Positions 3,907 through 7,703 of a DNA stretch of 32,252 nt are shown piece after piece (position 1 is the first letter of the stretch; each line of letters opens with the position of its first letter). This DNA is from Lachnospiraceae bacterium (GTDB taxonomy: Bacteria > Bacillota > Clostridia > Lachnospirales > Lachnospiraceae), in the NCBI GenBank assembly GCA_017428265.1, contig JAFRRD010000018.1, positions 1-32,252 of the forward strand, in the 5' to 3' direction. The notes under the pieces are model-generated. The model worked only from the letters and a program-made list of their open reading frames with translations. It had not been told where the DNA came from and searched no databases. The position numbers and the translations under genes are program-made.

Positions 3907-4452
3907 TCATTCGCTCTCGAGAACCTCTTCGTCGGGGTCAAAGAAGCGGTCTTTCTTCTTCACGGCCTGCATCAGCGCCATACGTTCCTCGTTGCCCAGC
4001 ACGACCTCTGCCTGCCCTTCCTTGATCTCTTTCAGATAGGTATAGCAGGTATTGCGGCTGTGGATGACGTTCAGCAAAAAGCCGTTGTTGTTCAGGTCCA
4101 GCATGGCCAGCACGAAACTCGACTGGCCGCCCATGCCCTCGAAGGCGTTGTAGCGGATCACGGCGACCTTCTGGTAGGAGTTGACAAGGCTGCGGTTGAA
4201 CAGGCGCATCACGTCCTTGTCGGCCTTCTCCAACTGCTCGAGTTTTTCGACGCGGCCGATGAGGCCGGAAATGGTATTTTCGAGCGAAGACGCGTCTTTT
4301 CCGCGCATAAACAAGTCATATCCGCGCGAAATCTTGATATACTTCACCAACCAGAAGACCATGAGCGCCAGAAACACCACGACCAGCACGAGCAGGACGG
4401 TGACGGCGGCGTCGGTGGAAATGCCGAGTTTTGTCAGAAAGCTCTCTTTCAT
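3907..4452 (-). CDS. DUF4446 family membrane-anchored protein
   Basis: A 181-residue protein with one N-terminal transmembrane helix (about 15-37), a probable coiled-coil stretch (RVEKLEQLEKADKDV) and the family core RSLVNSYQKVAVIRYNAFEGMGGQSSFVLAMLD. This matches DUF4446, a family commonly encoded next to parB in Clostridia; its function is unknown. Its Shine-Dalgarno AGGAGG overlaps the parB stop codon (9-base gap), indicating tight co-expression with parA-parB. A link to segregation or division at the membrane is inferred from context only. Confidence 0.88.
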   Translation of the reverse strand: MKESFLTKLGISTDAAVTVLLVLVVVFLALMVFWLVKYIKISRGYDLFMRGKDASSLENTISGLIGRVEKLEQLEKADKDVMRLFNRSLVNSYQKVAVIRYNAFEGMGGQSSFVLAMLDLNNNGFLLNVIHSRNTCYTYLKEIKEGQAEVVLGNEERMALMQAVKKKDRFFDPDEEVLESE

Positions 4453-4461
4453 GGTGACCTC

Positions 4462-5394
4462 CTATTTCAGCCTGTCGGTAATGCGTTCCAGGTCTTCGAC
4501 CGAGTAATAGTCGATGACGATCTGACCCTTGTCCGGTTCGCTCCGGCGGATCGTGACCTTGGTGCCGAGGGTCCTGCGTAGCCTGAGCTCCCACTCATCG
4601 TAAGCGGTACGGTCCGCATCGCGCCAGTCGGGCTCTTCACCCTTCGGCGGCTGGTTCATGCGTCTGACCAGGCGCTCCGTATCGCGGACGCTCATAGCCT
4701 TTTCGGCGATCTCCTTCGCCGCGCCGAGCTGTTTTTTCTTATCGGAAAGGCCGAGGAGCGCCCTGGCGTGGCCTTCGCTTAAGCTTCCCTCCATGACCAT
4801 GGCCTGGACGCGTTCATCGAGTTTCAGAAGGCGCAGGCTGTTTGCGACCGCACTGCGGCTCTTGGAGACCTTCTCTGCGAGTTCATCCTGCTTTAAGCCG
4901 AAGTCGTTCATCAGCTGGCGGTAGGCCTGGGCTTCCTCAATGGGATTTAAGTCTTCGCGCTGGATGTTTTCGATCAGGGCGACCTCGGTCAGTTCCTGTT
5001 CGCTCAGCTCGCGCACGATGACCGGGATCTTTGTCAGACCCGCCATTTTGGCGGCGCGCCAGCGGCGTTCACCGGCTGCAATCTCGAAATGGTCGTCCTT
5101 CGGGACGACGAGGATCGGCTGCAGCACGCCGCGCCGTCCGATCGAATCCGCGAGTTCCCTGAGGGCCGCTTCGTCGAAAAGGACGCGCGGCTGGCTGGGA
5201 CGGGGTTCCACCTGCGAAATGGCGACTTCGCGGATGATTTCTCCCTTATCCACCGATTTATTCACATTTGAGGGCTGAATTGTGGATAACTTTTCGCTTG
5301 TATGAGAATTTTCCGGAGATTTTTCCACTTTTTCCTCAGGATATTCCGGAATCAGGGCTCCAAGTCCTCTGCCCAGTGCATTTTTCCTTGTCAT
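4462..5394 (-). CDS. parB: Chromosome partition protein ParB (Spo0J)
   Basis: A 310-residue CTP-dependent DNA clamp that loads at parS and spreads along origin DNA. Domains in order: ParA-stimulating peptide LGRGLGALI (7-15); a polar, probably disordered linker (about 20-52); the ParB nuclease-fold domain with GERRWRA (108-114) and ENIQREDLNPIEEA (142-155); a helix-turn-helix around 166-190; and the C-terminal dimerisation region. The open frame extends far upstream inside parA, but the ATG at 5394 gives the canonical N-terminus and has AGAGGA 5 bases before it. The linker coding sequence is strikingly AT-rich and full of DnaA-box-like words. Four perfect parS sites lie about 1.6-2.3 kb upstream in the transcript direction. 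Confidence 0.97.
   Translation of the reverse strand: MTRKNALGRGLGALIPEYPEEKVEKSPENSHTSEKLSTIQPSNVNKSVDKGEIIREVAISQVEPRPSQPRVLFDEAALRELADSIGRRGVLQPILVVPKDDHFEIAAGERRWRAAKMAGLTKIPVIVRELSEQELTEVALIENIQREDLNPIEEAQAYRQLMNDFGLKQDELAEKVSKSRSAVANSLRLLKLDERVQAMVMEGSLSEGHARALLGLSDKKKQLGAAKEIAEKAMSVRDTERLVRRMNQPPKGEEPDWRDADRTAYDEWELRLRRTLGTKVTIRRSEPDKGQIVIDYYSVEDLERITDRLK
5246..5329. promoter_or_regulatory. Cluster of DnaA-box-like sequences inside parB
   Basis: Within the parB linker coding region I see TTATCCACC (5246-5254, plus), TTATTCACA (5258-5266, plus), a perfect TTATCCACA on the minus strand (5289-5281) and a weaker TTTTCCACT (5321-5329, plus). The stretch is AT-rich inside an otherwise GC-rich gene. 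The matches are direct observations; DnaA binding is inferred. Confidence 0.6.
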
Positions 5395-5435: not shown

Positions 5436-6203
5436 TTACGCCGGACGGTGCTTTACGACTTCCTTTGCCAGCTGCCGGTAGGCTTCGGCGCCGGCGGAGC
5501 GGGAATCGTAGAGATTGATGGGCAGGCCGTGGCTCGGGGCCTCGGCCAGCCTGACGTTGCGCGGAATGATGGTCTTGTAAATGTTCTGGCGGAGATTTTC
5601 CTTGACGTTCTCCACCACCTGCATGGACAGGTTGGTCCTGGCATCGTACATCGTGAAGACGACGCCTTCGATCTCCAGCTTCGGGTTGAGGCTCTTCTGC
5701 ACCAGTCCGATAGTGTAGAGCAGCTGGCTCAGCCCTTCCAGGGCGTAGTATTCGCACTGGATCGGGACGAGGACCGCGTCGGCCGCGGTCATGGCGTTGA
5801 TGGTCAGCAGATTGAGCGAGGGCGGGCAGTCGATCAGGATGTAGTCGTACTCGTTCTTCACCCCGGCGAGGCCGTTTTTCAGGATGAACTGGCTCTTCGG
5901 GATGCCGATGAGTTCGACTTCCGCGCCGGCCAGATGCACGGTGGCCGGCAGCACGTCGACGCCATCGACGACCGACGCGTAGCGGCATTCCACCAGCTCG
6001 CATTCTCCGATCATCAGCTGGTAAACGGTCATATCCAGATTGTCTTTGTCCAGGCCGAGGCCGCTCGAGGTGTTGCCCTGCGGGTCCATATCGACCGTCA
6101 GGACCTTTTTGCCCAGCTCAGCCAGACTTGCCGACAGATTGATGACGGTCGTGGTCTTGCCCACGCCGCCCTTCTGATTGGCTATGGCGATGATCCGGCT
6201 CAT
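5436..6203 (-). CDS. parA: Chromosome partition ATPase ParA (Soj)
   Basis: A 255-residue deviant-Walker ATPase. KGGVGKTT (11-18) is the Walker A motif, VDMDPQGN carries the Walker A' aspartate, and LIDCPPSLN is the Walker B region. Length and motifs match chromosomal Soj/ParA without the N-terminal helix-turn-helix of plasmid ParA. It works with ParB in origin segregation and, in Bacillus, also modulates DnaA activity. AAGGAGG lies very close to the ATG, 8 bases after the rsmG stop, and parB follows after 41 bases, so rsmG-parA-parB-DUF4446 form one operon. Confidence 0.97.
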   Translation of the reverse strand: MSRIIAIANQKGGVGKTTTVINLSASLAELGKKVLTVDMDPQGNTSSGLGLDKDNLDMTVYQLMIGECELVECRYASVVDGVDVLPATVHLAGAEVELIGIPKSQFILKNGLAGVKNEYDYILIDCPPSLNLLTINAMTAADAVLVPIQCEYYALEGLSQLLYTIGLVQKSLNPKLEIEGVVFTMYDARTNLSMQVVENVKENLRQNIYKTIIPRNVRLAEAPSHGLPINLYDSRSAGAEAYRQLAKEVVKHRPA

Positions 6204-7004: not shown

Positions 7005-7020
7005 TGTTTCACGTGAAACA
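7005..7020. promoter_or_regulatory. parS site 1
   Basis: Perfect 16-bp palindrome TGTTTCACGTGAAACA, the ParB/Spo0J loading site conserved across bacteria. It lies just upstream of the rsmG-parAB promoter. Confidence 0.97.
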
Positions 7021-7045
7021 AAAAACCGCGGTTTCGCAGCGCAAA

Positions 7046-7061
7046 TGTTTCACGTGAAACA
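7046..7061. promoter_or_regulatory. parS site 2
   Basis: Second perfect TGTTTCACGTGAAACA, 41 bp from site 1 start to start (about four helical turns, hence the same DNA face). Confidence 0.97.
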
Positions 7062-7646
7062 TGGCTTCTGATCGGGCCGTCCGCTCTGTGATCCGCCCTT
7101 TCACGGCAGTGCGCCGCCTCTTTCCCCGGCAATATCCGGCCCGGCAGCGGACACTGCCCTTTCACCGGCTGACAGTACGTCCGGGGCGGCATTTCATGTT
7201 CCGGTCTTCCGCCGTCCTTCCGGAAACCTCGTAAACCGCGAAAATGCCGGATGCATTTTCGCTGAACCTCGGTAAAAACCGCGCAAAGGAATGCGCGGTT
7301 TTTATCCGGAGACGGCGTTGTCCGGAACATATGCCGCCAACCGTACGTACTGATGCCGGATCAACGGCCGCGCCGCCTGCCCGGGCCGGACGGGGCCGCG
7401 GTCCGCCTTCGAACGATATTAAGCCGTCCGGCAGGAAGTACCGGCGCCGCATGACGCCGTCTCCGGATGCGGACGCACCATCCGCGGTGCGGCCGCACTG
7501 AGCGTCAAGCCTGAAATGCATCGGCATTTTCAGGCGGTTCGCGAAGCTTCCGGCAAGACGGCGGAAATGCGCCGCCCAGTACTTCCCCGGGCGGCGCACT
7601 ATCGTGAGAAGGCGGCCGCGGAGCGGCCAGCCCATGAGGCGAAAAA
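7062..7646. other. Intergenic GC-rich spacer between the two parS pairs; no credible gene
   Basis: About 585 bp with no credible protein gene. Several open frames cross it on both strands, but they overlap each other, are rich in Arg/Pro/Gly of the kind produced by GC-rich non-coding DNA, and show no recognisable domain. The only clear element is a symmetric 12-bp hairpin near its middle. It could be structural spacer DNA of the partition centromere or encode an RNA; nothing in it decides between these. Confidence 0.6.
7274..7303. terminator. Symmetric terminator between mnmG and rsmG
   Basis: Perfect 12-bp stem (AAAAACCGCGCA / TGCGCGGTTTTT) with a 6-base loop. Either strand gives a GC stem followed by five U. 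It lies about 400 bases beyond the mnmG stop and probably ends the mnmE-mnmG transcript before the rsmG operon. Confidence 0.75.
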
Positions 7647-7662
7647 TGTTTCACGTGAAACA
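7647..7662. promoter_or_regulatory. parS site 3
   Basis: Third perfect TGTTTCACGTGAAACA, in the mnmG-proximal pair. Confidence 0.97.
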
Positions 7663-7687
7663 AATTCCGGCTGTCTGGCCCTGAAAA

Positions 7688-7703
7688 TGTTTCACGTGAA
7701 ACA
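7688..7703. promoter_or_regulatory. parS site 4
   Basis: Fourth perfect TGTTTCACGTGAAACA. It ends on the base next to the mnmG stop codon and is again 41 bp from its partner, start to start, as in the first pair. Confidence 0.97.

Follow-up and report, generated by a model that had tools for sequence, protein, structure and literature searches.

The DnaA-box clusters that lie close to oriC in Bacillus subtilis are intergenic. Their joint removal leads to early initiation of replication (Okumura et al. 2012, as related in PMC5295017 and PMC4447404; these papers and those named below are cited from excerpts of their text). In Escherichia coli, datA and DARS, together with an enrichment of boxes near oriC, represent groups of DnaA boxes outside oriC that tune DnaA; datA and DARS do not code for protein, and they work through the nucleotide state of DnaA (PMC12371093). 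In Caulobacter crescentus, DnaA boxes are found at parS, close to the origin within the par region, and link initiation to segregation (Mera et al. 2014, via PMC6399470), and in Vibrio cholerae the rctA/parS2 site of the partition region binds the initiator RctB, not DnaA, and seems to titrate it (PMC6399470).

The array of DnaA-box-like sites described here resembles the B. subtilis clusters in that several boxes are closely spaced, near but outside oriC; it differs from them in being located inside a protein-coding gene, parB, at fixed positions and in one genus. With datA and DARS it shares the grouping of DnaA boxes outside oriC; compared with these elements, and with the B. subtilis clusters, it is coding, with a role predicted from sequence. 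As in Caulobacter, the sites belong to the origin-near par region, but they lie in the coding DNA of parB, about 2 kb from parS. The rctA/parS2 site is also part of a partition region, although, as described in the excerpt, it is not coded in a ParB linker.

Groups of DnaA boxes outside oriC are already known, and those that we found described in these sources are non-coding or linked to parS; what is new here is a cluster dual-coded in a segregation gene. No earlier report of DnaA boxes inside parB was found in the titles and abstract openings searched. We consider it very probable that the parB linker of this genus carries a DnaA-binding array, with four boxes (A to D) kept at fixed positions by selection at the DNA level while the surrounding peptide drifts.

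Organization of the par locus

The window, i.e. the whole stretch of DNA analyzed (32,252 nt), contains the following features:

3907-4452, minus strand: DUF4446 gene (Pfam), directly downstream of parB
4462-5394, minus strand: parB, chromosomal ParB/Spo0J type, 310 aa (Pfam ParB_N, HTH_ParB, ParB_C), host of the box array
5436-6203, minus strand: parA, directly upstream of parB
7005-7703: four exact parS-type 16-mers (starts 7005, 7046, 7647 and 7688), 1.6-2.3 kb from the parB start codon
13740-13925, plus strand: oriC region upstream of dnaA
13975-15303, strand opposite to parA, parB and the DUF4446 gene: dnaA, 8.6 kb from parB

The DUF4446 gene is likely to belong to the same transcript as parB. 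A sigma-70-like promoter was looked for in the gap between parA and parB, and no match was found. The parS-type 16-mers were identified by the parS consensus; the group is intergenic, between genes named gidB and gidA by eye. At its left edge (1-120) the window encodes what appears, by eye, to be the terminal part of an IS3-type transposase.

The distance between the parB start and the dnaA start was found to be 8,002-9,587 bp in 13 of the 13 genus genomes measured. In the stretches read from 13 genomes, 2 to 7 exact parS-type sites per genome occur upstream of parB, the nearest at a distance of 1,542-1,693 bp from the start codon of parB, with the array located deeper inside the gene.

The DnaA of the source genome is canonical and carries the Bac_DnaA_C domain (Pfam), and the oriC boxes of the genus have the same consensus as the boxes in parB, so that binding of DnaA would be the natural reading of the array. 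The first-pass annotation had also proposed that the sites might act as an accessory origin element. This looks unlikely, since neither gene direction nor AT skew switches at parB: genes run in the same direction on both sides of it, both features switch near dnaA, 8.6 kb away, and the classical oriC boxes sit at dnaA, not at parB.

Four DnaA-box-like sites in the ParB linker

The first-pass annotation had listed four DnaA-box-like sites in parB, all of which were found where it placed them:

5321-5329, plus strand: box A, TTTTCCACT, gene nt 66-74, antisense to parB; the weaker site
5281-5289, minus strand: box B, TTATCCACA, gene nt 106-114, sense to parB
5258-5266, plus strand: box C, TTATTCACA, gene nt 129-137, antisense to parB
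5246-5254, plus strand: box D, TTATCCACC, gene nt 141-149, antisense to parB

The four boxes occupy codons 22-50 of parB. As the ParB_N domain of the product extends from residue 54 onward (Pfam), these codons form the linker ahead of the folded ParB domain, in agreement with the location originally assigned to the boxes. The description of the region as an AT-rich stretch in a GC-rich gene also holds: its AT content is 63.1%, vs 39.2% for parB positions 4462-5240 and 52.3% for 5330-5394. The six AT-richest 60-nt windows of the parB-parA region (61.7-65.0%) all start at positions 5252-5292, and the AT-rich stretch is confined to the boxes, with no extension past them. Box B had been noted as the only perfect box, and TTATCCACA was indeed found once in the window; every oriC box contains a mismatch, as had been reported.

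Single boxes are mildly frequent in the window (20 vs 11.6 expected; 3 of 100 shuffles reach 20). Stretches of 100 nt with at least three boxes occur in the window only in parB and in oriC. In the source genome TTATCCACA is not enriched, with 8 copies vs 7 for the reversed pattern, and summed over the 16 genus genomes it is enriched, with 200 vs 110. It is the clustering that stands out: the 2.16-Mb assembly contains 24 exact TTATNCACA sites, and three boxes within 120 bp were found at the two parB sites only.

Conservation of the boxes within the genus

A ParB search of 98 genomes gave a match in 90, including 15 of the 16 genomes of the same genus (source genome included); G009 gave none. 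Fifteen genus parB genes, with 60-98% DNA identity, were aligned by codons, and no indels were found among them in the linker. A second ParB gene of G013 (contig C22) was left out of the alignment and included in the box scan, which covered 16 parB genes in total. The two ParB genes of G013 (C2 and C22) come from different lineages within the genus, perhaps because the assembly is mixed; its listed contamination is 4%, and one of the two genes may be foreign.

Box B was present as the exact TTATCCACA, at the identical gene position, in 15 of the 16 parB genes. The sole exception, the parB gene of G002, has ACATCCACA in its place and retains boxes C and D. Each of the 16 linkers contains 2-4 boxes with at most one mismatch to TTATNCACA. 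Among the 15 aligned genes the TTWTNCAC core is retained in 14 at box A, 14 at box B, 10 at box C and 9 at box D, which gives 2-4 cores per gene; box A reads TTTTCCACT in seven of them.

The position of the boxes bears on a role at the centromere, in which an array about 2 kb from parS would help to move or license the ParB-parS complex, by analogy with Caulobacter, where DnaA binds parS and DnaA-ATP is required for partitioning (PMC6399470, excerpt). The array is located at about 1.7-2.5 kb from the parS group of the window, which is consistent with such a role. However, the boxes lie away from parS itself, and the array is constant across the 13 genomes, whereas exact parS-type sites range in number from 2 to 7. 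We regard this role as improbable.

Synonymous codons are constrained in the linker

The first-pass annotation had proposed aligning relatives to see whether the boxes are absent or randomly placed; their positions proved to be fixed, and the conservation exceeds what the amino acids need. In the test of constraint, the tree was taken from the rest of parB, linker columns in which 13 or more of the 15 residues agree were used, and the expectation was derived from columns of the same amino acids in the remainder of the gene. Conserved columns are few in the linker, and only nine entered the test; these showed a single synonymous change vs 29.0 expected; none of 200,000 resamplings was as low, the pools being small for some residues (two columns for Thr, four for Asn, six for Lys). 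In the five columns located inside boxes no synonymous change was found vs 16.1 expected, a result reached in 0 of 200,000 resamplings.

When the gene was analyzed in windows of 30 columns, the ratio of observed to expected changes dropped to 0.03 (columns 20-49) and 0.00 (columns 30-59). The windows starting at 0 and 10, which overlap the element, gave ratios of 0.59 and 0.37, and all parB windows from alignment column 40 on gave 0.83-1.21. For the control genes the lowest window was 0.84 for parA (15 genes), 0.87 for gidB (15 genes) and 0.69 for mnmE (13 genes), gidB and mnmE having been named by eye.

The fixed codons inside the boxes are TTA, TCC, ACA and two GTG. TTA represents 7.9% of the Leu codons of genus parB outside the linker and 1.8% of those of 18 genes of the window; the share of ACA among Thr codons is 0.8% and 5.7%, respectively. 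Of 24 near-invariant Leu columns one uses a single codon, and of 9 Val columns two do; all three are in boxes. Single-codon columns were found elsewhere in parB too, for Ser, Thr, Ile, Arg, Asn and, mostly, Gln.

The recurrence of LST and V-[DE] at the same places, together with the rarity of TTA and ACA, could be due to a constraint on the protein or its translation, i.e. a KLST / VDK peptide motif or a pause at rare codons ahead of the folded domain. Peptide motifs do not fix synonymous codons, however, and fixation is no less strict for GTG and TCC, both of them common codons, which makes this explanation extremely unlikely.

The number of boxes in the linkers of 12 representatives (32) was also higher than that obtained by permuting synonymous codons within the linker (mean 19.9, maximum 28 in 2000) or by drawing codons from the gene (mean 6.3, maximum 14). 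Synonymous constraint was found to extend beyond the boxes: the codons GAA AAA, preceding box A, and GAA AAT, in the A-B spacer, are fixed as well, and selection may thus act on more than DnaA boxes.

The inverted arrangement of the boxes raises the question of an mRNA hairpin or attenuator, formed by A-B, B-C or B-D, as the conserved feature. Standard pairs are formed in 87-93% of the cells of the three stems, vs 24-51% when the arms are slid, as is expected of inverted boxes anyway, and the z value was below -2 in five of eight folded sequences. Against this, the predicted folds pair differing arms across species, and the sequence of the window itself gave a z of +0.32. All pairs are intact in only 2 of 15 genes for B-C, 7 of 15 for A-B and 6 of 15 for B-D; shuffles do about equally well for these stems. 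No pair was changed on both sides in any of them, a count of limited power as box B is nearly invariant. The partner sites alternate between TTAT and TTTT forms, which breaks the pairing yet is compatible with DnaA boxes. A conserved RNA structure therefore appears very improbable.

Box pairs outside the genus and genome-wide

The array was restricted to one genus among the genes examined. Among 134 parB loci taken to lie outside it, of which 132 are distinct (L042/L072 and L103/L170 repeat), no locus had two boxes in the stretch scanned. The scan covered the matching 210 nt, from 180 nt ahead of the point where the conserved core starts to 30 nt past it, so that longer linkers were covered in part; it gave 11 boxes in total, never exact. 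The core identity of the named records that were counted as lying outside the genus was 47-69%. In one of the loci, L042 (G032, another genus), two copies of TTATTCACA lie 46 nt apart near the 3' end of parB.

Two pattern searches across the family, each covering 397 genomes, gave matches in at least 86 genomes and in 44 genomes. No ParB was found among the 20 and 30 fetched loci examined; in the second search (44 genomes), the matches in G000 and G003 are parB by coordinates. Near-palindromic GTGGATAATGTGGATAAC...GTTATCCACATTATCCAC arrays were observed at G448:C25:117006-117191 (twice, 140 bp apart) and at G158:C133:17327-17372.

Three genome-wide searches for box pairs were performed in the 16 genus genomes, and the reversed-pattern control gave zero in all three. 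Divergent pairs were found in 14 of the 16 genomes, with a match in parB in each; the sole other place was the oriC of G006. Convergent pairs were all located in parB, beside dnaA, or in one stretch of G002 upstream of a DnaD-type gene. Direct pairs occurred in 13 places: five in parB, two in oriC, three between murC-like and DnaD-type genes, and three elsewhere. This distribution identifies parB as one of three recurrent DnaA-box spots in the genus.

A recurrent GTGGATTTTT...TTATCCACA pair, spaced like boxes A and B, at first suggested a copied oriC module, a reading that was rejected: the eight loci opened lie between murC-like and DnaD-type genes.

An interval between murC-like and DnaD-type genes with several DnaA boxes was observed in other Lachnospiraceae genera (L211, L217, L225, L226, L227, L236, L238 and L239) and in this genus (L013, L240, L241, L243 and L245, of which L240 shows the DnaD-type gene only). 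The DnaD-type assignment comes from Pfam DnaB_2 matches in L217 and L241, the two loci tested, and murC was named by eye. Boxes beside the DnaD-type gene suggest control of a primosome gene by DnaA.

Possible roles of the array

The fixed positions and the synonymous constraint lend good support to the proposal of an in-gene DnaA site. How such a site would act can be considered in the light of its distance from the origin. The array might simply bind DnaA once the origin region has been copied, and so delay the next initiation, like the B. subtilis clusters; its place in the linker would then be due to the tolerance of this coding stretch to change. Such titration is favored by the 8.0-9.6 kb that separate the starts of parB and dnaA in each of the 13 genomes measured, and by the finding that the best consensus match near oriC in the window is the parB array. 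B. subtilis cells without the six clusters initiate early and are partly relieved by one cluster restored at various places (PMC5295017, excerpt), and E. coli DnaA boxes accumulate near oriC (PMC12371093, excerpt). Titration, however, would demand a number of boxes, not one exact position, and there are just 2-4 per gene; neighboring intergenic DNA would serve, and a site for titration alone would be more easily accommodated in the 0.7-kb parS-bearing intergenic region. We consider titration as the whole function to be possible, but rather unlikely.

This last argument speaks for a local action of the array on parB transcription, shifting the balance of ParA to ParB, which is the mode that we tentatively prefer. 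DnaA would fill the array, located downstream of parA and ahead of the body of parB, and the filled array would hinder transcription into parB and the DUF4446 gene. As no promoter match was found between parA and parB, DnaA bound at codons 22-50 could lower the expression of parB and the DUF4446 gene, leaving parA untouched, and the block in parB would shift the ParA:ParB balance. In B. subtilis, it depends on Spo0J whether the effect of Soj on DnaA is activation or inhibition (PMC5295017, excerpt), so a block in parB would feed back on initiation. The array would be copied very soon after initiation and would thus also draw DnaA off oriC.

The occupancy of such sites should not be taken for granted. 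The in-gene DnaA sites of B. subtilis in codV and rplB showed good binding in vitro, and at rplB none was detected in vivo (PMC4447404, excerpt), which is a warning against assuming that DnaA occupies the parB boxes.

A more elaborate version of local action would be a feedback switch, in which DnaA on the parB linker blocks parB and not parA, free ParA rises, and ParA in turn alters DnaA at oriC, 8-9 kb away. The linker DNA would then specify both a flexible stretch of protein and a site through which replication controls segregation, and the A-B spacer (GAAAATTTT-like in many members, with the GAA AAT codons fixed) would be the point at which the DNA bends, or meets a partner, to form a loop. 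As a complete scheme this is speculative and, in our view, unlikely.

The dual-coded array, by far the strongest synonymous constraint in parB, would offer a clean handle on the coupling of replication and segregation in Firmicutes. Synonymous recoding would remove the boxes while leaving the ParB protein unchanged, so that the roles of DNA and protein would be directly separable. The array is also a warning that the sequences of ParB linkers can be moulded by DNA function. The conserved boxes suggest that, in this genus, the start of replication and the sorting of chromosomes may be directly linked via parB.
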